A stretch of 64,000 bases of DNA from Thiobacillus sp. Its GTDB lineage: Bacteria > Pseudomonadota > Gammaproteobacteria > Burkholderiales > Thiobacillaceae. Under the pieces are notes generated by a model that saw only the letters and a list, made by a program, of their open reading frames with translations, was not told the origin of the DNA and ran no database searches. This document shows, in pieces, positions 23,754 to 37,794 of the stretch; position 1 is the stretch's first letter, and each line of letters starts with the position of its first letter. The translations under genes were made by a program, and so were the position numbers. The stretch spans positions 1-64,000 of the forward strand of contig JANJXF010000077.1 of the NCBI GenBank assembly GCA_024709165.1, read 5' to 3'.

Positions 23754-25073
23754 ATGACGATTTCGAAGGACGAGCAGGCACGGCGTTTCCGCTACTACAC
23801 CGAACCGCGCATGGTGACCGCGCTGACGCGACGCACACTGGCGCTGGTGCTGGCCGGCGGCGAAGGCTCGCGCCTGAAGGACCTGACCGCTTGGCGCGCC
23901 AAGCCGGCCGTGCCGATCGGCGGCAAGTACCGCATCATCGATTTTCCCCTGTCCAATTGTGTCAATTCGGGAATCCGCCGTATCGGTGTGCTGACCCAGT
24001 ACAAGTCGCATTCGCTGATCCGCCACCTGCAGCGCGCGTGGGGTTTCATGCGCGCCGAGATTGGCGAGTTCGTCGAGATCCTGCCTGCGCAGCAGCGCAC
24101 CCACAAGAAGGAGTGGTACCAGGGGACGGCCGATGCGCTGTACCAGAACATCGACATCATGCAGCGTCATCACCCCGACTACGTGCTCGTGCTCGGCGGC
24201 GATCACGTCTACACCATGGATTACTCCGACATGCTGCTCCATCATGTGCAGCAGGAGGCCGATTTCACCGTGGGCAGCATCGAGGTGCCGATCGGCGAAG
24301 CCAGTGCCTTCGGCGTGATGTCGGTCGACGAGAACCTGCGCATCACGCGCTTCAGCGAAAAGCCAAAGCATCCCGACTGCGTCCCCGGCAAGCCGGACAC
24401 CGCGCTGGTGTCGACCGGCATCTATATTTTCTCCAAGGATTTTCTCTACAGGACGCTCATCGAGGACGCCGCCGACAGCGATTCCTCGCACGACTTCGGC
24501 AAGGACATCATTCCCTCGAAGATCGGCAGCGCCCGCGCGGTGGCCTATCCCTTCCGCAACAAGGCCGGCCGCCCCGCTTACTGGCGCGACGTCGGCACGC
24601 TGTACTCCTACTGGCAGACCAACATGGAACTGTGTTCGGTCGAGCCAGAGCTCAACCTGTACGACCGCGACTGGCCGATCTGGACCTACCAGCCGCAGTA
24701 TCCGCCGGCGAAGTTCATCTTCGACGACGAGGGGCGGCGCGGCGAGGCGATCGACTCGCTGATCGCCGGCGGCTGCATCCTGTCCGGTGCCCGCGTGAAA
24801 CGGTCGGTGCTGTTCTTCGCCACCACGGTGGAACAGCAGACGCTCGTCAAGGACAGCGTGATCCTGCCCAAGGTGAGCATCGGTCGCAACTGCCGCATCA
24901 CCCGTGCGATCATCGACAAGGGCACGGTCATTCCCGACGGCTTCGTCATCGGCGAGAACCTTGCGGAGGATGCCCGGCGTTTCCACGTGACCCCGGAGGG
25001 CATCGTGCTGGTGACGCCAGCGATGCTGGGGCAGAATCTCTACGCGCGCTGGCAGGACGAATTCGATGGCTGA
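23754..25073 (+). CDS. glgC: Glucose-1-phosphate adenylyltransferase
   Basis: 439 aa; LALVLAGGEGSRLKDLTAWRAKPAVPIGGKYRIIDFPLSNCVNSGIRRI. Confidence 0.97.
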   Translation: MTISKDEQARRFRYYTEPRMVTALTRRTLALVLAGGEGSRLKDLTAWRAKPAVPIGGKYRIIDFPLSNCVNSGIRRIGVLTQYKSHSLIRHLQRAWGFMRAEIGEFVEILPAQQRTHKKEWYQGTADALYQNIDIMQRHHPDYVLVLGGDHVYTMDYSDMLLHHVQQEADFTVGSIEVPIGEASAFGVMSVDENLRITRFSEKPKHPDCVPGKPDTALVSTGIYIFSKDFLYRTLIEDAADSDSSHDFGKDIIPSKIGSARAVAYPFRNKAGRPAYWRDVGTLYSYWQTNMELCSVEPELNLYDRDWPIWTYQPQYPPAKFIFDDEGRRGEAIDSLIAGGCILSGARVKRSVLFFATTVEQQTLVKDSVILPKVSIGRNCRITRAIIDKGTVIPDGFVIGENLAEDARRFHVTPEGIVLVTPAMLGQNLYARWQDEFDG

Positions 25074-26787
25074 GCAGCTCAATGTCGTGCTGTGCTGGCA
25101 CATGCACCAGCCGTATTACCGCGACGGACTCGCCGGGGCCTACCGGCTGCCCTGGGTCTACCTGCACGGCATCAAGGACTACAGCGACATGGCGGCGCAT
25201 CTGGAGGACCACCCCGCCATGCGCGCGGTGATCAACTTCGTTCCGGTGCTGCTGGAGCAACTCGACGACTATGCGGGCCAGCTCGAAGACCTGCTGAAGG
25301 GCGGACGGGCGACGCAGGATCCCATGCTCAACCTGCTGGCCGGAGTCGAGCCGATTCCGGCCGATCCCGCGAAGCGTCTGCGCATCATTCTTGATTGCCA
25401 GCGTGCGCACACGCAGCGCATGATCCAGCCGCATGCCGCCTTCGCGCGCTTGCTGGAACTGGGGGGGGGCAGCGGGGATGCCGTCGATGGCAGCCCGGCC
25501 ACACCCTGGCAGTTGGGCTACCTGTCGGAGCAATATTTTCTCGATCTGGCGACCTGGTATCACCTTGCCTGGCTCGGTCATTCGCTCGCACGGCAAGCCC
25601 TGCCGCAGCGTCTCATGGCGCAGGAGAAAGGGTTTGGGGAAGCCGACCGGCGCGCCCTGCTGGATCTCATCCAGCACACGCTTGCCGGGCTGGTGCCGCG
25701 CTACCGGGTGCTCGCCGAACGTGGGCAGATCGAGTTGTCCATGACGCCGTGGGGACATCCCATCGTGCCGCTGCTCAACGATTTCACCAATATGCGCGAC
25801 GCCCTGCCCGATGCGCCGGCACCGGTCGCGGCAGCGTATCCCGGCGGTGCGGAGCGCGTACGCTGGCACCTGCGCTACGGTCTCGAAGTGTTCGAACGCC
25901 ATTTCGGCAGCAGGCCGGCCGGCGTGTGGCTGTCGGAAGGCGGCGTTAGCGAGGATGCGTTGGCCCAGCTCGACGAATTCGGTATCCGCTGGACGGCGTC
26001 GGGAGAGGGCGTGTGGCGCAACAGCTGCGTCAAGTCGGGTTGCCCGATGGAGCAAACCACGGCGAAACGCGGGCTGTTCTCGCCGGCACGCTTCGACGCG
26101 CGGGACGTGCGGGTGTTCTTCCGCGACGACGGATTGTCGGATCTGATCGGCTTCAAGTACAGCAATTGGCACGCCGACGACGCCGTTGGTGATTTCATCC
26201 AGCACCTGGAAAACATCGCCGGTTTCTTCGGCGACGAGGCGGACAAACATGTCGTGTCGGTCATTCTTGACGGTGAAAATGCCTGGGAGTACTACCCGGA
26301 CAACGGCCATCACTTCCTCGATGCGCTGTACCGCAGACTGTCCACGCATCCGACCCTGCAGATGCGCACTTTCGCCGGCGTTGCGGCGGAGCTGCCCGTG
26401 CGGCAGATGAAGACGCTCGCAGCGGGCAGCTGGGTCTACGGCAGCTTTTCCACCTGGATCGGTTCGGAGGACAAGAACCGCGGCTGGGACCTTCTGGTGG
26501 CGGCCAAGCGCGATTTCGACGAGGCCGTTGCCGCCGGCGATCTCGGTGGCGACGCGCTGCGGCAGGCGACGCGCCAGCTCGCCGTATGCGAAGGGTCCGA
26601 CTGGTTCTGGTGGTTCGGCGATTACAATCCGGCGGGCAGTGTCAGCGATTTCGAGCAGCTGTTCCGCGCCCAGTTGCGCGAACTTTACCGCCTGATCGGC
26701 GTGGCGGCGCCGCTCACGCTCGATGTGCCGCTGTCGCACGGACGCGGTCATGCAGAGAACGCCGGCACCATGCGCAGGAATACCTGA
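25066..26787 (+). CDS. Glycoside hydrolase family 57 protein (alpha-glucan active)
   Basis: 573 aa; LNVVLCWHMHQPYYRD..., WLSEGGVSEDALAQLDEFGIRW, VILDGENAWEYYPDNG. Confidence 0.9.
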   Translation: MAEQLNVVLCWHMHQPYYRDGLAGAYRLPWVYLHGIKDYSDMAAHLEDHPAMRAVINFVPVLLEQLDDYAGQLEDLLKGGRATQDPMLNLLAGVEPIPADPAKRLRIILDCQRAHTQRMIQPHAAFARLLELGGGSGDAVDGSPATPWQLGYLSEQYFLDLATWYHLAWLGHSLARQALPQRLMAQEKGFGEADRRALLDLIQHTLAGLVPRYRVLAERGQIELSMTPWGHPIVPLLNDFTNMRDALPDAPAPVAAAYPGGAERVRWHLRYGLEVFERHFGSRPAGVWLSEGGVSEDALAQLDEFGIRWTASGEGVWRNSCVKSGCPMEQTTAKRGLFSPARFDARDVRVFFRDDGLSDLIGFKYSNWHADDAVGDFIQHLENIAGFFGDEADKHVVSVILDGENAWEYYPDNGHHFLDALYRRLSTHPTLQMRTFAGVAAELPVRQMKTLAAGSWVYGSFSTWIGSEDKNRGWDLLVAAKRDFDEAVAAGDLGGDALRQATRQLAVCEGSDWFWWFGDYNPAGSVSDFEQLFRAQLRELYRLIGVAAPLTLDVPLSHGRGHAENAGTMRRNT

Positions 26788-26799
26788 TGATTTCGGCGT

Positions 26800-26930
26800 C
26801 ATCCACGAAGGAACGCGAAGAAGGCGACGTCCTGCGTGTCGGCGCTGCCGGAATTCCGGTGCACGGACACGGCCAGACAGGGACAGACTGTTTCCTTCGC
26901 GTCCCGTCGCACCCTTCGCGGACAAACAAG
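26800..26930. repeat. Intergenic hairpin element, copy B (degenerate)
   Basis: ATCCACGAAGGAACGCGAAG ... TTCCTTCGCGTC...CCTTCGCGGACAAAC in GH57-malQ spacer. Confidence 0.6.
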
Positions 26931-26941
26931 GGGTTTCCCGC

Positions 26942-28294
26942 ATGATCCGGTCCGCGCGCCGTGCCGGGGTGCTGCTGCATCCGACCTCGCTGCCTTGCGG
27001 CACACTGGCGGACGCCCCGCGCTGGCTGGAGTTCCTGCACGCTTCCGGGTTTTGCGTATGGCAGATGCTGCCGCTTGGGGTCCCGCTCGCCGGCTTGTCG
27101 CCTTACCAGTCCGTGTCCGCCTTCGCGGTCGATCCGTCGCTGTTCCCCGAAGGCGATATCGACCCCACCGGCTATGCCGACTGGCAGGCACGGCAGGCGC
27201 ATTGGCTCGACGATTTCGCGCGCTTCACGGTGATCAAGGCAGAGCAGGGCGGCACGCCGTGGACCGAATGGCCGCAGGCGCTGCGTGACCGCGAGCCCGG
27301 CGTGATGGTGCGTTTCGACATCGCGCACGGCGAGGCGCTGGACACGGTCAGGCGCGCGCAATACCGCGCGGTGACGTACTGGCATGGCCTGCGTACACAG
27401 GCCGCGGCACGCGGCATCCTGCTGTTCGGTGACATGCCGATCTTCGTCGCCCACGACAGCGCCGACGTGTGGGCGCGGCGCGACCTGTTCCTGCTAGACG
27501 CCGGCGGCTATCCGGAAGTCGTCACCGGCGTGCCACCCGACTACTTTTCCGCGACCGGGCAGCGCTGGGGCAACCCGCATTACAACTGGGCGGCGATGCA
27601 GGCCGACGGCTTTGCCTGGTGGCGCGCGCGGCTGGCGGCGCATTTTGACTGGTTCGACCTGGTGCGCATCGATCATTTTCGTGGCCTGGCCGCCAGCTGG
27701 CACATCCCGGCGAGCGAGCCCACCGCGGCACACGGCGCATGGGTGCCGACCCCGGGTGCCAATCTGCTGCAGGCGATTGCCGACACCATGGGGCCGTTGC
27801 CCCTGGTGGCCGAGGATCTCGGCATCATCACGCCCGATGTCACCGCCCTGCGCCAGCAGTTCAAGCTGCCCAACATGGCGGTGTTGCAGTTCGCTTTCGA
27901 CGGACACGCCAATAATCCGCACAAACCGGAGAACGTGCAGGCGGACACGGTTTATTACACCGGCACCCACGACAACGACACCACGGCCGGCTGGTGGCAG
28001 GCGCTGCCCGAAACGGTGCGCGAACAGGTCATGGCGCAGCTTGGCGCCGTCGATGCGGCGGCGGTGCCGGACATCATGGCCGACGCCGTGCTGCACAGCC
28101 GCGCCGGGCTTGCCATCCTGCCGTTGCAGGATTTGCTCGGCCTCGGTAGCGTGGCGCGCATGAACACGCCTGGCACGGTCACCGGCAACTGGACCTGGCG
28201 CTTCGCATGGGATGCGCTGACGCCCGAACTGATCTCGCGCCTGCTTGAAAAAAACCGGAAAGCCCAACGATGCCCCATACCAAACAGCGGATGA
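26942..28294 (+). CDS. malQ: 4-alpha-glucanotransferase (amylomaltase)
   Basis: 450 aa from ATG 26942; [13 protein letters not shown]..., [29 protein letters not shown]. Confidence 0.93.
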
Positions 28295-30492
28295 ACGTCC
28301 CCGGCCCGGCCGCGCCCCTGCAGGTGATCGATGAATCGATCGCGCGCCTGCAGGCCGGCACGCACCACGACCCCTTCGAGGTGCTGGGCTTGCATGTCCA
28401 GAGCGACGGCCACAGACTGTTCCGCGTCTTCCTGCCGCCGGCCGAAGCGATCGAGGTGGCGGACACGCGCATGACGCGCATCGCCGGTACCGATTGTTTC
28501 GAACTCCGCATTCCGCCCGGCGCGGCTGTCGAGCCGCACCCCCTGCTGCGTTGGCAGCACAAGAGAACCGGTCACTGGCACACGGCACGCTCGTCCTATA
28601 CCTTCGCCCCGCAGCTTGGTGAGCTCGATTTGCACCTGCTCGGCGAGGGCCGCCATCTCCAGGCGTGGAAGGTGCTCGGCGCGCGCCTGGCCTGCGTCGA
28701 CGGCATCGACGGCTGCCAGTTCGCCGTGTGGGCACCAGCGGCGCAGCGCGTCAGCGTGATCGGCGACTTCAACGACTGGGACGGCCGTCGCCACCCCATG
28801 CGCTGCCGCGGCGCCACCGGCATCTGGGAGCTGTTCATCCCCGGCCTTGCGGCGGGGCAGGCGTACAAGTATGAAATCCTCGGCCCGCACGGCCAGCTGG
28901 TGAAAAAAACCGATCCGTATGCACGCCGCATGTTCCTGCGCCCGGAAACCGCCAGCCGCGTGCCGGAAGACCAGACCCACGTGTGGGGCGACGCCGCCTG
29001 GGTCGACGCCCGCGCCGGCTTCGACTGGCAGCATCGTCCCATCAGCGTCTACGAGGTGCACCCCGGCTCGTGGCGGCGGCACGCGGATGGCAGCTTCTAC
29101 GGCTGGAACGAGCTCACCGCCGAACTCATCCCCTACGTGCAGGAACTCGGCTACACCCACATCGAACTCCTGCCGGTGGCCGAGCATCCGCTCGACGCCT
29201 CGTGGGGCTACCAGGTGTCGGGTTACTACGCGCCCACTGCGCGCTTCGGCACGCCCGACGATTTCCGCGCCTTCGTCGACGCCTGCCACCAGGCCGGTAT
29301 CGGCGTGCTGCTCGATTGGGTGCCGGCGCACTTCCCCAAGGACGACTGGGCGCTCGCCCGTTTCACCGGCGAGGCGGTGTACGAACATGCCGACCCGCGT
29401 CGTGGCGAGCACCAGGACTGGGGCACCCTCATCTTCAACTTCGGTCGTCACGAAGTACGCAACTTCCTCATCGCCAATGCGCTGTACTGGCTGGAGGAAT
29501 TTCATATCGACGGCCTGCGCGTCGACGCCGTCGCCTCCATGCTGTATCTCGATTACTCGCGGCGCGACGGCGAATGGCTGCCCAACGCCTATGGCGGACG
29601 CGAGAACATCGAAGCCATCCATTTCCTGCGCGAGCTGAACACCGCGGTGCACGGGCGTTTTCCCGGTGTGCTCACCATCGCCGAGGAATCGACCGCCTGG
29701 CCTGCGGTATCCCGCCCGGTCGAACTCGGCGGACTCGGTTTCTCGATGAAGTGGAACATGGGCTGGATGAACGACAGTCTTGCCTACATCGAGCAGGACC
29801 CCGTGCATCGGAAATATCACCACAACCGACTCACTTTCAGCCAGATGTACGCGTGGACCGAGAACTTCGTGCTGCCGCTGTCGCACGACGAGGTCGTGCA
29901 CATGAAAAAGAGCCTGCTCGACAAGATGCCGGGCGACACCTCGCAGCGTTTCGCCAACCTGCGCCTGTTCTATGCCTGGCAGTATGCCCATCCAGGCAAG
30001 AAGCTGCTGTTCATGGGCGGCGAATTCGCGCAATGGAACGAATGGCGCGAGGCCGGCCAGCTCGACTGGGCGCTGCTGCGTTTCCCCATGCACGACGGCA
30101 TCCGCGCGCTGCTGCGCGACCTCAACCGGCTCTATCGCAGCGAAGGCGCATTGCACGATTACGACTTCGACCCACGCGGCTTCCGCTGGATCGACTGCCA
30201 CGACGCCGACCAATCCGTGTTGAGCCTGCTGCGGCAGGGGCGGGACGAGTCCGACCGTATGGTGATTCTGCTCAACTTCACCCCCGTACCTCGCCATGGC
30301 TATCGCATCGGCGTGCCGGCCGCGTCCGCGTGGGGCGAAGTGCTCAACAGCGATTCCATGTATTACGGCGGCGGCAACCTCGGCAACGGCGCGCCGATCG
30401 CCGCGCAAAACCAGCCGTGGATGGGGTTCGAGCAGTCGATCGAAGTCGTCCTGCCGCCGCTGGGTGCGATCTTTCTCAAGCCGTGCCCGTAA
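28270..30492 (+). CDS. glgB: 1,4-alpha-glucan branching enzyme
   Basis: 740 aa; [49 protein letters not shown]. Confidence 0.97.
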
Positions 30493-30525
30493 AATACGGG
30501 CAAGACAACGATACAAAGCGGAGCA

Positions 30526-31980
30526 ATGAACATTCTTTTTGCCGCCAGCGAGGCGTATCCGCTGGTGAAGACCGGCGGCCTGGGTGACGTCGCCTACAGC
30601 CTGCCCAAGGCCCTGCACGCACGGGGCGCGGACATCCGTCTGGTCCTGCCGGGCTACCACAGCCTGCTGCGCCAGCTCGACGCGATACGCATCGCCGGCT
30701 GGCTGGACGTGCGCGGCAGCGAGCGCACGTTCGGCGTGCGCGTGCTGGAAACGCGCCACGCTGCCTATCCGTTTCCGCTGTGGATCGTCGACTGCCCGCC
30801 GCTGTTCGATCGCCCCGGCAACCCCTACGTCGGCGAGAACGGCCGCGACTGGCCGGACAACGCTGAGCGCTTCGCGGTGTTCGCGCGCGCCGTCGCGCTG
30901 CTCGCGCAGGATGCGCTGGGTGTCGGCTGGCGCCCCGACGTGGTGCACAGCCACGACTGGCAGACCGGACTGGTGCCCGCCTTTCTCGCCGACCTGGCGG
31001 CTCCGCCGCGGACCGTGTTCACCATCCACAATCTGGCTTATGGCGGCTATTTTCCGCATGCCGATTTCGTTCGTCTGCAATTGCCGGCGCACTGGTGGAA
31101 CCCGGAAGGCGCCGAGTTTCATGGTGGTCTCTCGATGCTCAAGAGCGGCATCGTCTACGCCGACGCCATCACCACCGTGAGCCCGACCTACGCGGAGGAA
31201 ATCTGCACCCCGGGGTTCGGCTACGGGCTCGATGGCCTCCTGCGCTCGCGCCGCCACAAGCTCACCGGCATCCTCAACGGCATCGACACCGACGCGTGGA
31301 ACCCCGCCACCGACCTGCATCTGCCCGCGCACTATTCGAAACTGCGCATTCAGCCGGGCAAGCGGCACAACAAGCGGGCCCTGCTTGAACGTTTCCAGCC
31401 GGTGGACGACGAACTGCTCGACGCCCCCCTGCTCGGCATGGTCGGACGTCTCGTCGAGCAGAAGGGTATCGACTGGATTCTTGCCGCAATGCCGGTACTG
31501 CTCGCCGAAACGGATGCGCGCTTCGTCGCGCTCGGTAGCGGCCAAACTTTGTACGAGCAGAAACTGCAACGCCTGGCGCAGCAGCATCCGGATCGCATCA
31601 TGGTTGAAATCGGCTACGATGAAGAACTGGCGCATCGCATCGAGGCCGGTGCGGACATTTTTCTCATGCCGTCGCGTTTCGAGCCCTGCGGGCTCAACCA
31701 GATGTACAGCCTGCGCTACGGCACGCCACCGGTGGTGTTCCGTACCGGCGGTCTGGCCGACACCGTGGTCGACGCCGACGCGGCGCATTGCGCCGACGGT
31801 ACCGCCACCGGCTTCGTGTTCGACCAGCCCGAAGTTTCGGGCTTCCTCGATGCCATCCGCCGCGCGCTCGACCTGTACCGGCAGCCCAAGGCGTGGCGCC
31901 GGCTGCAGCAGACCGGCATGCGCCAGAACTTCGACTGGTCCGAAAGTGCGGGCCATTACCTGTCCCTCTATGCCACCTGA
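30526..31980 (+). CDS. glgA: Glycogen synthase
   Basis: 484 aa; [30 protein letters not shown]. Confidence 0.97.
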
Positions 31981-31997
31981 TAGTTGCCGGGGTTGTC

Positions 31998-34499
31998 ATG
32001 TCCGCCAAAACATCCGAAGAACTCTGCACACTTTCCGCCTGTCCGTTTTCGCTGAAACCGCTGCCGGCGGACACCGAGGCCCTGCGTCGCGATTTCGAGC
32101 GTTACCAGTATTACCATCTGGGCCGCCCGTACGGCTCCCCGCCGCTGTACACCTACCATGCGCTCGCCTGGTCCCTGCGCGACCGCATCATGTCCGACTG
32201 GATGAACACCTACACCGGGCGCGACCAGCCGGGCCGCCGCCGCGCCTACTACCTGTCGCTCGAATTCCTCATCGGTCGTGCACTGGGCAACCATGTCCTG
32301 AATCTCGACCTCGACGCCCCGACGCGCGAAGCGCTGCAAAGCTTCAGCCACACGCTGGAAGATGTCGTCGAGCAGGAGCCGGACGCCGGCCTCGGCAACG
32401 GCGGCCTCGGCCGCCTGGCCGCCTGTTTCATGGACAGCTGCGCCACCCTCAAGCTGCCGGTCATGGGCTATGGCATCCGTTATGAATACGGCATGTTCGG
32501 CCAGCGCATCGAGAACGGCTACCAGAAGGAAGAACCCGATCACTGGCTGCGTGCGGGCAATCCGTGGGAAGTCGAGCGCTCCGAGTTCACCTGCCGAGTG
32601 CACTTCGGCGGGCGCGTCGAGCATTTCCGCGACCCCGCCGGCATCCCGCGCGCGCGCTGGATCGACACCGACGACGTGCTGGCCATTCCGTTCGACATGC
32701 CGATCACCGGCTACCGCAACCGCGCGGTCAACACCCTGCGTCTGTGGAAGGCCGCCGCCACCGACGAATTCAACTTCGACGAATTCAGTGCCGGCAGTTA
32801 TGGCGAGGCCGTACAGGCGAAGAACGAGGCCGAGCACATCTCGATGGTGCTCTACCCCAACGACAGCAGCGAAAACGGGCGCGAACTGCGCCTGCGTCAG
32901 CAGTATTTCCTTGCTTCTGCAAGTCTGCAGGACGTCATCCGCCAGTGGCGTGCGGCCGACAACAGCGATCTGGCGAAGTTCGCCGAACACAACGTGTTCC
33001 AGATGAACGACACCCATCCCTCCATAGCCGTCGCCGAGCTGATGCGCCTGCTGCTCGACCAGGAACGCCTCACCTGGGACCAGGCGTGGGCCATCACGCG
33101 CAACTGCATGGCCTACACCAACCACACCTTGCTGCCCGAAGCGCTGGAAAAATGGCCCGTCTCCCTGTTCGAGCGGCTGCTGCCGCGTCTTCTGGAGATC
33201 ATCTACGAGATCAACGGTGCCTTGCTGCGCGAAGTTGCCACCCGCTGGCCCGGCGACATCGACCGTCGGCGCCGCATGTCGCTCATCGAGGAAGGCGAGG
33301 TACGGCAGGTGCGCATGGCCTGGCTCGCCATCGTTGGCAGCTTTTCCGTAAACGGTGTTGCCGCCCTGCATTCGCGCCTGCTGCGTGAAGGGCTGTTCCG
33401 CGACTTCTACGAACTATGGCCCGAGAAATTCAACAACAAGACCAACGGCGTCACCCCGCGCCGCTGGCTCGCGTACGCCAACCCCGGTCTTTCCGCGCTC
33501 ATCACCCGCGAGATCGGCGATGGCTGGGTCGCCGATCTCGCCCAGCTCTCGCGCCTGCGGCCCCTCGCCGAGGCCGGACACGAGGCCTTCCAGGCCGAAT
33601 GGCGCGCGGCCAGGCGTGCCAACAAGGTCCGTCTGGCCGCGCTGGTCAGGACTGAATGCGGTATCGAATTCAATCCCGATGCCCTGTTCGACGTGCAGGT
33701 CAAACGCATCCACGAATACAAGCGGCAGCTCCTCAACATTCTGCACGTCATCCACCTGTACAACCGCATCAACCAGCACCGCCTCGACGGCTGGGTCGAC
33801 CGCTGCGTTCTCATCGGCGGCAAGGCCGCGCCCGGCTACCTCATGGCCAAACGCATCATCAAACTCATTACCAGCGTCGCCGATGTCGTCAACAAGGACC
33901 CCGACGTCGGCGGCCGGTTACGCGTCGCCTTCCTGCCCAATTACCGCGTCACCAGCATGGAAATCATCGCGCCCGCCACCGATCTGTCCGAGCAGGTTTC
34001 CACCGCAGGCAAGGAAGCCTCCGGCACCGGCAACATGAAATTCATGATGAACGGCGCCGTCACCATCGGCACCTACGACGGCGCCAACATCGAAATCCTC
34101 GAGACGGTGGGCGAGGACAACTTCTTCCTCTTCGGCCTGCGCGCGGAGGAAATTGAGGAGCTGCGTCCGGACTACAATCCGCAGGCCTTCATCGACAGCG
34201 ATCCTGACCTGCGCGATGTCGTCGGGCTGCTGCAATCCGACCATTTCAGCCTGTGCGAACCCGGCATCTTTCAGCCCATTCTCGATGCCATGCTGGACCC
34301 GAACGATCCCTGGATGACGCTGGCCGACTTCCGCAGTTACGTCGATGCGCAAAATCGCGTCGAGCAGGCCTGGCGCAATCCTGCCGGATGGACCCGCATG
34401 AGCATCCTGAATACTGCGTCGAGTGGCTATTTCTCCACCGACCGCACCATGCGGGAGTACAACGACGAGATATGGAAGCTGGTTGCGAACGGGGGGTGA
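31998..34499 (+). CDS. glgP: Glycogen phosphorylase
   Basis: 833 aa from ATG 31998; RRAYYLSLEFLIGRALGNH..., KVSTAGKEASGTGNMKFMMNGA-like motif (EQVSTAGKEASGTGNMKFMMNGAVTIGTYDGANIEI). Confidence 0.96.
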   Translation: MSAKTSEELCTLSACPFSLKPLPADTEALRRDFERYQYYHLGRPYGSPPLYTYHALAWSLRDRIMSDWMNTYTGRDQPGRRRAYYLSLEFLIGRALGNHVLNLDLDAPTREALQSFSHTLEDVVEQEPDAGLGNGGLGRLAACFMDSCATLKLPVMGYGIRYEYGMFGQRIENGYQKEEPDHWLRAGNPWEVERSEFTCRVHFGGRVEHFRDPAGIPRARWIDTDDVLAIPFDMPITGYRNRAVNTLRLWKAAATDEFNFDEFSAGSYGEAVQAKNEAEHISMVLYPNDSSENGRELRLRQQYFLASASLQDVIRQWRAADNSDLAKFAEHNVFQMNDTHPSIAVAELMRLLLDQERLTWDQAWAITRNCMAYTNHTLLPEALEKWPVSLFERLLPRLLEIIYEINGALLREVATRWPGDIDRRRRMSLIEEGEVRQVRMAWLAIVGSFSVNGVAALHSRLLREGLFRDFYELWPEKFNNKTNGVTPRRWLAYANPGLSALITREIGDGWVADLAQLSRLRPLAEAGHEAFQAEWRAARRANKVRLAALVRTECGIEFNPDALFDVQVKRIHEYKRQLLNILHVIHLYNRINQHRLDGWVDRCVLIGGKAAPGYLMAKRIIKLITSVADVVNKDPDVGGRLRVAFLPNYRVTSMEIIAPATDLSEQVSTAGKEASGTGNMKFMMNGAVTIGTYDGANIEILETVGEDNFFLFGLRAEEIEELRPDYNPQAFIDSDPDLRDVVGLLQSDHFSLCEPGIFQPILDAMLDPNDPWMTLADFRSYVDAQNRVEQAWRNPAGWTRMSILNTASSGYFSTDRTMREYNDEIWKLVANGG

Positions 34500-34867: not shown

Positions 34868-36214
34868 ATGCAGATCAAACCCCTTCTGGTCGCCGTGACG
34901 ACCGTGCTTGCTGGCCTGTCTGCGCCGGCGGGTGCCCAGCTTCTCCCCCCTGTGCTGCCGGTCCCGGCAGGTACGCCGCAATCGGCTGATCAGTGGATGA
35001 ACCGCATGATGGATTTCACGCAGAATGCGTCGGCCTTCAAGGACCCGGCCGCGTTCGCGGCGTGGACCAACGCGATGACCGATCCGGCGATGGCCACTGC
35101 CATGGCCAGTCATCTGATGGAGCCGGGCAACCTGCTGCGCGCGATGACCACGATGATGCAGCCGGGCACGACGGCCAACTACATGCAGTTCCTCGACCCC
35201 AATATCTATCTGCGCTGGGGCGGGGCGATGATGAATCCGATGTGGTACACGCAGATGGCGCTGAACATGGCCGATCCCGGCAAGATGATGCGCTGGATGC
35301 TGCTGCCGATGGACCCCAAGGTGTGGAAGCTGGGGATGCAGATGATGGATCCCAACCTCTACGTGAAGTGGATGATGACGCCGACCGATCCGCGCGCGAT
35401 GGCGCTGATGTTCGCGCCGATGAACCCGCAGCTCTACGGCAGCATGCTGGGTGGGGCGTTGAATCCGCAGCTGGTCGGCGGGCCGAACTCGACCTGGGGC
35501 ACCTTCATGTACCCGGCGCAGCCGGTGGTGCAGGTGCAGGGCCATGCGCCGGTGGCCAGCCCGATCAACGTATGGGACCCGAGCACCTGGTTCAGCATGC
35601 TCAACATGTTCGGCATCAATCCTTCGGGCGGAACGGCCGGGACGGGTGCGACGACATCGTTCTTCCCCACCTTCGGCAGCGGCCCCAACCCCTATCTGCC
35701 GGCACCGCAGCCCGCGCAACCGTCCGCCGCTGCGGCACCCGTCGCCGTGCCGGCAGTCGCTCCGGCGCCTGCGGTTGCCCCCGCAGTGGCCCCCGCACCC
35801 GCCGGATTCGCGGTCCAGGCGGGCGCGCCGTCGACCCTGAGTCTCGGCGGTGATGCCCTGTTCAAGACGGGCAAGTCGTCCATCAAGGACCTGACCCCGG
35901 AAGGGCGCGCAAAACTCGACGATCTGGTTGCGAAGATCAAGGCATTCGGCGCGATCGACAGCATCAAGGTCACCGGCCATGCCGACAAGATGGGCAAGGC
36001 GTCCAGCAACAAAAAGCTGTCGCTGACGCGCGCGAAGGCGGTGACTGCCTATCTCAAGTCCAAGGGCGTGAAGGCCAAGACCTTTGCCACGGCGGGCGTG
36101 GGCGACACCCAGCCGGTCGTCGACTGCGACATGAAGCTGGCGAAGGATGCGCTGAAGGCGTGCCTCGCGCCCAACCGCCGGGTGGACATCGAGGTCGCCG
36201 GCGCGAAGAAATAA
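34868..36214 (+). CDS. OmpA-family protein with Met-rich tandem-repeat N-terminal domain
   Basis: 448 aa; signal peptide MQIKPLLVAVTTVLAGLSAPAGAQ; C-terminal OmpA motif NKKLSLTRAKAVTAYLKSKGV...CLAPNRRVDIEV; repeats of ~13 aa anchored on [DNEQ]P. Confidence 0.88.
   Translation: MQIKPLLVAVTTVLAGLSAPAGAQLLPPVLPVPAGTPQSADQWMNRMMDFTQNASAFKDPAAFAAWTNAMTDPAMATAMASHLMEPGNLLRAMTTMMQPGTTANYMQFLDPNIYLRWGGAMMNPMWYTQMALNMADPGKMMRWMLLPMDPKVWKLGMQMMDPNLYVKWMMTPTDPRAMALMFAPMNPQLYGSMLGGALNPQLVGGPNSTWGTFMYPAQPVVQVQGHAPVASPINVWDPSTWFSMLNMFGINPSGGTAGTGATTSFFPTFGSGPNPYLPAPQPAQPSAAAAPVAVPAVAPAPAVAPAVAPAPAGFAVQAGAPSTLSLGGDALFKTGKSSIKDLTPEGRAKLDDLVAKIKAFGAIDSIKVTGHADKMGKASSNKKLSLTRAKAVTAYLKSKGVKAKTFATAGVGDTQPVVDCDMKLAKDALKACLAPNRRVDIEVAGAKK
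35039..35484 (+). repeat. Protein-level tandem repeats (~11 units, 12-14 codons) encoding Met-rich [DNEQ]P motifs
   Basis: KDPAAFAAWTNAM/TDPAMATAMASHLM/EPGNLLRAMTTMM/QPGTTANYMQFL/DPNIYLRWGGAMM/NPMWYTQMALNMA/DPGKMMRWMLLPM/DPKVWKLGMQMM/DPNLYVKWMMTPT/DPRAMALMFAPM/NPQLYGSMLGGAL. Confidence 0.85.
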
Positions 36215-36305
36215 GACATCGGGCGGGACGCATTGGGGCGTAACCCGCAAAGCGGAGACGCTGCATTGCTTCATGGCGTCTGCACTTTTCACGGTGCACG
36301 CGGAC

Positions 36306-36340
36306 ATGAAAAAGGCCGGGACGTACCCGGCCTTTTTCAT
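36306..36340. terminator. Bidirectional intrinsic terminator
   Basis: ATGAAAAAGGCCGGG-ACGTA-CCCGGCCTTTTTCAT: 15 bp perfect palindrome with A/T flanks between convergent genes. Confidence 0.9.
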
Positions 36341-36352
36341 GGATAAAGCGGA

Positions 36353-36733
36353 TCAGGCGGCCTGTACGGGGATTGCCTGGCGCGTATCGAGGATACGGTT
36401 GTCCGCATCCACGTATACCAGGTCCGGCGCGTAGCGCGCCAGTTCCAGCTCGTTGTAGGTGGCGTAGGTGGCGATGATCACGAGATCGCCCGGCCTGGCC
36501 TTGTGCGCGGCCGCGCCATTTACCGAGATGATCCCCGAATCGCGCGCCGCGCGGATGGCGTAGGTGGTGAAGCGCTCGCCATTGCTGACGTTGTAGATCT
36601 GGATCTGCTCGAACTCGTGGATGCCGGCCGCGTCCAGCAGGGTCTCGTCGATCGCGCAGGAACCTTCGTAATGCAGCTCCGAATGGGTGACGGTGGCCCG
36701 GTGCAGCTTGGACTTGAGCATCGTTCTCTGCAT
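36353..36733 (-). CDS. panD: Aspartate 1-decarboxylase
   Basis: [38 protein letters not shown]: pyruvoyl GS site intact. Confidence 0.97.
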
Positions 36734-36960
36734 GACGGTGCCCTCAGGGAATTGCGAAAAAGGATCGACATTATACTCCCCTTCGACCTGCAAACCCCGT
36801 GGACGGTTCAATCGTGGGGGGTCGCCTGCGGGGTGGCGCGGCGTCACGTGGCCGGCGGGTTCAAGTTGCGGCGATCCACGCCGATTATCCTTTCAGGGGC
36901 CTTGGGGGCCTTGCGGACGGTCGCGACTGCGCGGCCCGGCATGACGCGGCTGGAGACGAT

Positions 36961-37794
36961 ATGGCGCAGCAGCAAAAAACACTGGATGATTGGCTGGCCT
37001 TTCTGGGCGCGGCCGATATCCCCGCGCTCCGGCATACCGCGCGCGAGCTGGGGCGGCTGCATGCCGACGAGGCACGCTTCACCGCCCGTGCCGTCGCGGA
37101 TGTGGTGACCGACGATCCCTTGATGACGCTCAAGCTCCTGCGCCATCTGCAACGTCACAAGCTTCGTCGGCAGGAATACGAACTGGTTGATGTCAGGCAG
37201 GTGCTTCTGATGATGGGGCTGGACGCCTTCCTGCGCGACGTGCCGGCCTCGCCGCTGGTGGAGGAGATGCTGCATGCCCACCTGGATGCGCTGGTGCAGC
37301 TGCTGCAGACTGTGCGGCGTGCCCAGCGCGCGGCGTATTACGCTTACGACTGGGCGTTGCGGCTGCACGATCTACATGCGGAAGAGGTCTACGTTTCGGC
37401 GCTGCTCACCCATGCCTCGGAGATGCTGATGTGGTGTTTCAACCCCGGCCCGATGCTGGAGATACGCAGCCGCCAGCGCGCCGATGCCGCGTTGCGCAGT
37501 GCGGATGCGCAGCGCCAGGTACTCGGCTTCACCGGCATGGAATTCCAGCGTCGCCTGACGCTCGACTGGGGGCTGCCCGAATTGTTGCAGAATTTGACCG
37601 ATCCCATGCTGGCGCGGTCGAGCCGGGTGCGCAACGTGATGCTTGCGGTGAATCTGGCGCGCCACTCGGCACAGGGCTGGGACGACGCCGCGCTGCCCGA
37701 CGACTACCGTGCGATCGGCGAACTGCTGCGCATGGATCCGGAGGAGGCGCAGCGTCTGGTGCGCCGGTTGCCGGCCGCCGACGCTCCGCCGTGA
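36961..37794 (+). CDS. HDOD-type signalling protein
   Basis: 277 aa; VADVVTDDPLMTLKLLRHLQRHKLRRQEYELVDVRQVLLMMGLDAFLRDV characteristic of HDOD N-region. Confidence 0.7.
   Translation: MAQQQKTLDDWLAFLGAADIPALRHTARELGRLHADEARFTARAVADVVTDDPLMTLKLLRHLQRHKLRRQEYELVDVRQVLLMMGLDAFLRDVPASPLVEEMLHAHLDALVQLLQTVRRAQRAAYYAYDWALRLHDLHAEEVYVSALLTHASEMLMWCFNPGPMLEIRSRQRADAALRSADAQRQVLGFTGMEFQRRLTLDWGLPELLQNLTDPMLARSSRVRNVMLAVNLARHSAQGWDDAALPDDYRAIGELLRMDPEEAQRLVRRLPAADAPP

Follow-up and report, generated by a model that had tools for sequence, protein, structure and literature searches.

What is the Met-rich repeat region that precedes the OmpA domain of a Thiobacillus protein, and what might it do in the cell envelope? 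The gene lies in a 64,000-nt stretch of Thiobacillus sp. DNA (assembly GCA_024709165.1, contig JANJXF010000077.1, positions 1 to 64,000), which was analysed as a whole and is referred to here as the window. It encodes a 448-aa protein comprising, from the N- to the C-terminus, a signal peptide, Met-rich repeats predicted to be helical, a Pro/Ala linker and an OmpA domain (Table 1). An earlier note, made from the sequence alone, had described the repeats and proposed that they might bind metals, scavenge oxidants or contact membranes or granules.

Table 1. Features of the repeat gene and its 3' flank (window coordinates)
Feature	Position (nt)	Strand	Basis
Whole gene, 448 aa	34868-36214	+	ORF and translation
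Signal peptide, type I, residues 1-23 (MQIKPLLVAVTTVLAGLSAPAGA, followed by Q)	34868-34936	+	By inspection
Helical-repeat domain (predicted fold; new as far as the libraries searched show), residues 37-222	34976-35533	+	No Pfam/NCBIfam/PDB match; AlphaFold models; dN/dS
Twelve [D/N/E/Q]P units of 12-13 residues each, residues 59-211	35042-35500	+	
Pro/Ala/Gly-rich linker, predicted disordered, residues 223-318	35534-35821	+	pLDDT, constraint
OmpA peptidoglycan-binding domain, residues 332-422	35861-36133	+	Pfam PF00691
Perfect hairpin, 16-bp stem	36305-36341	.	-29.4 kcal/mol, z -8.4
panD (aspartate decarboxylase), convergent with the repeat gene	36353-36847	-	PF02261

The two ends of the protein can be assigned with known features. 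An AxA-like cleavage site is present in 79 of 80 family members and a lipobox in none of the 80. The C-terminal domain, which the earlier note had also called as OmpA, matches PF00691 (E=1.5e-17, 64.2 bits against a gathering score of 27.2), and all 17 OmpA-bearing rows of the family alignment retain Asp373 and Arg388, the two residues through which OmpA domains contact peptidoglycan. In the AlphaFold model of the full protein, pLDDT falls below 50 across residues 215-233 and 243-313, and the linker is the least constrained of the three regions in most dN/dS comparisons. An OmpA porin (a beta-barrel plus OmpA) was rejected based on an equivalog score of 95.5 bits (cut-off 277) and an N-terminus that is helical throughout in the model.

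Upstream of the gene is a glycogen cluster (25066-34499) encoding GH57, 4-alpha-glucanotransferase, GlgB, GlgA and phosphorylase, as the earlier note had stated. Here and in six other loci, the repeat gene or its ortholog is found 3' of the phosphorylase gene, an arrangement that would fit a glycogen-linked or granule-contacting protein. Such a function can be given almost no credence: the protein has a signal peptide, its gene is separated from the phosphorylase gene by 368 nt, and both the paralogs and a second OmpA-bearing clade adjoin unrelated housekeeping genes. Contact with granules was thus rejected. Downstream, the strong terminator that had been reported is borne out by a perfect hairpin (Table 1), which is probably common to the repeat gene and panD and which a consensus terminator scan missed because the T-run sits within the stem. 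An HDOD protein is encoded beyond panD (36799-37794, + strand), and an HDOD gene is also located 3' of a family member in locus L081.

The repeats themselves are highly regular. [DNEQ]P dipeptides occur at residues 59, 72, 85, 98, 110, 123, 136, 149, 161, 174, 186 and 199, giving 12 consecutive units with a spacing that is always 12 or 13 residues; when residues 37-222 were shuffled 20,000 times, the longest such chain was four. The tandem repeats described previously are therefore real, but number 12 rather than approximately 11 and extend over nt 35042-35500 instead of 35039-35484; the region is also Met-rich as stated, with 26 Met in residues 55-205 and 27 in residues 55-219 (165 residues) instead of the approximately 29 originally counted. 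The dN/dS of the repeat domain ranges from 0.013 to 0.30, indicating strong purifying selection. With the two nearest orthologs the values are 0.013 and 0.049, a constraint equal to or tighter than that on the OmpA domain, and with the most distant ortholog compared the value is still below 0.31. Chance or low complexity as the origin of the repeats was ruled out by the shuffles and dN/dS values, and recent tandem duplication of DNA by the presence of only short and diverged direct repeats.

Alignment of the units from 62 family members gave the consensus D1-P2-[NGK]3-x4-[YWF]5-x6-[KRA]7-[WM]8-[ML]9-x10-A11-M12-[ML]13. Hydrophobic residues occupy unit positions 4/5/8/9/12/13 with helical periodicity, and in this register the helical moment peaks at 100 degrees, as in an amphipathic helix. 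The domain was modelled twice with AlphaFold, within the full protein and alone, and is predicted to form a chain of approximately 11-residue helices, one per unit, with a pLDDT of about 80-92 over most of its length. The prediction, a stack of repeating helices, has good confidence and accords with the solenoid suggested earlier, and we consider it very probable that the repeat domain represents a folded helical-repeat family.

No known domain was identified in this region. In Pfam searches with E-values up to 10, the repeat domain of the window protein had no family match; a Phasin_2 match to the protein (E-value: 0.54) was weak and was taken as noise. The 49 aligned family members likewise had no Pfam match other than a single stray weak one, NCBIfam returned only marginal matches for the repeat domain, and a profile of this domain found nothing among PDB sequences at E-values up to 10. 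Foldseek was run with the model of the isolated domain, since the OmpA domain otherwise dominated the matches. The best PDB match had an E-value of 4.8, with no STI1 among the matches, and nothing in BFVD was better than 6.1. Identity with a known domain was ruled out by these searches combined, in agreement with the earlier note, which had recognised no named domain; neither a match to a characterised domain nor a predicted structure devoid of a repeating unit was obtained. A description of the family was not found in literature searched on Met-rich repeats, OmpA/Thiobacillus and YeeE/DUF302. As far as the libraries searched show, the repeat domain belongs to an undescribed family.

OmpA proteins anchored to peptidoglycan are already known, as are helical grooves rich in Met, and the window protein resembles each in part. 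Like soluble PF00691 proteins, it has a flexible linker and a C-terminal domain with the Asp and Arg residues, but its N-terminus is a Met-rich helical repeat rather than a beta-barrel or known domain, and most of its paralogs lack OmpA entirely. With STI1/DP, the Sgt2/SGTA C domain and ubiquilin it shares short Met-rich amphipathic helices (predicted here) with D/N-P caps. It differs from them in having about 12 helices rather than about five, in being periplasmic and bacterial, and in giving no Foldseek match; nor did an STI1/UBQLN profile match the window protein (E-values up to 10) or the 49 members. The Met-rich groove of STI1/Sgt2 offers the nearest working analogy (PMC8010706), short of family membership. 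Two distant relatives, the proteins of L126 (7e-14) and L188, do match Pfam UBQLN1.

The domain is part of a paralogous family found in part of the Thiobacillaceae, with three to eight copies per genome and OmpA absent from most copies. The genome of the window has three members, and OmpA is present on the window gene only. Matches were obtained in 11 of 100 relatives, in three genera and with several copies per genome. Most of the named loci belong to Thiobacillus, to Parasulfuritortus or to other MAGs of the Thiobacillaceae/Hydrogenophilales; the labels Gallionellaceae, Bordetella and Tepidiphilus, which some MAGs carry, are probably unreliable. The family is absent from most sampled Thiobacillus genomes, including one with dsrA. 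OmpA-bearing members form two clades in the family tree (built with a column filter that omits the OmpA part), a topology that suggests two fusions or several losses. A low-Met companion paralog with the same DP-unit pattern is found in tandem 3' of a family gene at L113:10724-11404, L108:10654-11319, L044:7376-8026 and L047:10942-11604.

Comparison of family members indicates which property of the domain has been maintained. Its Met content varies from 4.7 to 26% across the family and is inversely related to Leu content (r=-0.89); an effect of GC content was rejected (r=0.09). Column by column, Met is exchanged for Leu, Val, Ala or Phe, and only positions 47 and 141 are more than 95% Met. The domain contains no Cys, a median of zero His and only about 11% charged residues. 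Because Met and Leu interchange and Cys and His are absent or nearly so, we infer that the conserved property is a hydrophobic face and not the chemistry of Met itself, which weakens metal ligation and oxidant scavenging as core functions. Binding of Cu(I) or silver by Met motifs, to which a Met-dense periplasmic domain might lend itself, is accordingly disfavoured along with the metal binding proposed in the earlier note, and we regard it as highly improbable: a conserved Met/His/Cys ligand set is absent, and no copper genes were found among the conserved neighbours examined.

The same substitutions bear on a role as an oxidant sink, in which periplasmic Met residues would be sacrificially oxidised and then restored by MsrPQ, on the model of the MrpX system of Azospira suillum. 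MrpX is also periplasmic and Met-rich, and there is a precedent for a periplasmic Met-rich peptide acting together with Msr (cited in PMC7464077). The family domain reaches 26% Met, and of the 18 genomes with the family that were tested, 12 have msrP. However, Leu takes Met positions and some members have as little as 4.7% Met. Moreover, msrP was not found in the other six genomes (the window's own assembly, which is 87% complete, G014, G059, G387, G539 and G775) and is never adjacent where present. Compared by description, MrpX further differs from the window domain, which is predicted to be folded, is built of repeats with interchangeable Met and Leu, and is unlinked to msrP. Oxidant scavenging is therefore possible but not favoured, and we judge it rather unlikely.

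Genes adjacent to the window gene and the Thiobacillaceae paralogs examined are housekeeping genes, with no sulfur genes among them. One paralog type adjoins the mlaFEDCB lipid-transport operon in approximately 38 loci; in most of these a short DUF72-like gene, scoring slightly below the Pfam cut-off, is situated between the family gene and mlaF (L039:9312-9773). The association with mla could indicate a holdase or lipid-handling protein, whose groove would bind unfolded outer-membrane proteins, lipoproteins or phospholipids instead of sulfur, and the Met-rich grooves of STI1/Sgt2 do bind transmembrane helices (PMC8010706). Four genomes without the family nevertheless have a DUF72-mla/cysS locus with the same flanking genes in the same order and no family gene, such that the adjacency may reflect mere position, and the distribution of the family follows sulfur oxidation. 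We consider this alternative unlikely, if somewhat less so than an oxidant sink.

The connection with sulfur comes from genome content and from distant relatives. Profile searches detected such relatives in two other Burkholderiales families, five other Gammaproteobacterial families and one genome elsewhere in the phylum (G905, outside the class of the window). The proteins of L125, L126, L158 and L188 are, like the core family, secreted and built of Met-rich units starting with xP, but have double units of about 25 residues (DPKMM...), lack OmpA and are encoded within sulfur-gene clusters. The DPKMM type (L126/L125) aligned with the core family using hhalign (98.8% probability, E-value: 9e-17), although Met-rich repeats can raise such scores artificially. 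A description of these proteins was not found in the literature either. Distant kin are adjacent to a YeeE/Sulf_transp gene in G243, G387, G636 and G466 and to a DUF302 gene in G243 and G387; DUF302 is fused to a Met-rich repeat in G636, where DsrE2 is also adjacent, and in G905 a DUF302-like gene is a neighbour and a FadL-type porin gene is nearby.

Several of these clusters contain further Met-rich proteins. In G466 (L172:8466-14590, also L173 and L174), several more secreted Met-rich xP-repeat proteins are encoded beside a YeeE-type transporter, including 9-10-residue NP units (NPATYMQWMNPGAYAAFM) and one protein with a CxxCH haem-like motif; those that were scanned had no Pfam family. At L170:5341-9172 of G636 (also L158), DUF302 is fused to a long MMNPAMMMNP repeat adjoining DsrE2 and YeeE, and a neighbouring Met-rich protein has a CALCH haem-like motif. 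At L188:1837-6250 of G905, genes for a FadL-type porin, a small CTACH protein, a DP-repeat protein and a DUF302-like protein lie in a row.

Using dsrA as a marker of the Dsr pathway, we found it in 10 of 11 bearer genomes and then in G905, found afterwards (11 of 12), compared with base rates of 117/369 in a draw from the class and 36/180 in a draw from the order. For the class draw, the association has a Fisher p-value of 0.0046, which overstates independence as some bearers are congeners. The gene soxB discriminates less (6 of 7 class-level bearers versus 148/369). The converse does not hold: the family is absent from 110 of 116 dsrA-bearing genomes in the class draw. As most dsrA genomes and most sampled Thiobacillus genomes lack the family, sulfur oxidation can proceed without it.

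A multi-copy, hydrophobic, low-charge, extracytoplasmic family in dsrA-bearing organisms might also have a structural role, coating or scaffolding sulfur deposits in the periplasm instead of acting as a carrier, and the envelope proteins of Allochromatium sulfur globules have been described as extremely hydrophobic (PMC10386293). The attachment of the OmpA copy to peptidoglycan speaks against this, and we consider a coat improbable.

In the explanation that we prefer, the OmpA domain fastens the window protein, a soluble protein of the periplasm, to peptidoglycan. From this anchor, a flexible linker of approximately 95 residues would extend about 12 stacked helices, all of them short and amphipathic and each with a [D/N]P cap. 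The Tyr/Trp/Met/Leu faces of these helices may together create a groove or surface, flexible and hydrophobic, that binds hydrophobic cargo much as eukaryotic STI1/Sgt2 do with their Met-rich "helical hands". The repeats, the anchor residues, the family, its selection and its co-occurrence with dsrA are observations and the helices a prediction, from which the groove, its cargo and any ferrying are deduced. Binding of hydrophobic cargo by the repeat domain is slightly favoured. The most likely cargo would be zero-valent sulfur (S0/polysulfane), which the protein would retain or transport within the periplasm, because kin of the family occur almost only with Dsr-type oxidation and some are adjacent to sulfur-import genes; the lack of Cys for covalent sulfur carriage in the family domain argues against it. 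The full reading, a peptidoglycan-tethered helical hand for hydrophobic cargo including sulfur, is plausible but falls somewhat short of an even chance.

YedE1E2 imports zero-valent sulfur (PMC10812762), and the YeeE-like SoxT1A, the only demonstrated importer of sulfur for oxidation as described in 2024, has sulfur presented to it in a manner that is only modelled (PMC11582611). We tentatively propose, as a possibility on the doubtful side, that the family carries zero-valent sulfur without Cys, using Met/aromatic grooves, between FadL-type importers of the outer membrane and YeeE/SoxT-type importers of the inner membrane that feed the Dsr pathway. Were this true, the family would represent a carrier of a new kind. 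Independently of this, the helical-repeat domain is unmatched in Pfam and the PDB and would give the Met-rich STI1/Sgt2 grooves a counterpart in bacteria. In dissimilatory sulfur oxidisers, where sulfur presentation and inner-membrane passage are still only modelled (PMC11582611), this conserved, unannotated, hydrophobic periplasmic family that tracks dsrA and in distant lineages adjoins YeeE, DsrE2 and DUF302 provides named genes to test for sulfur presentation and import.
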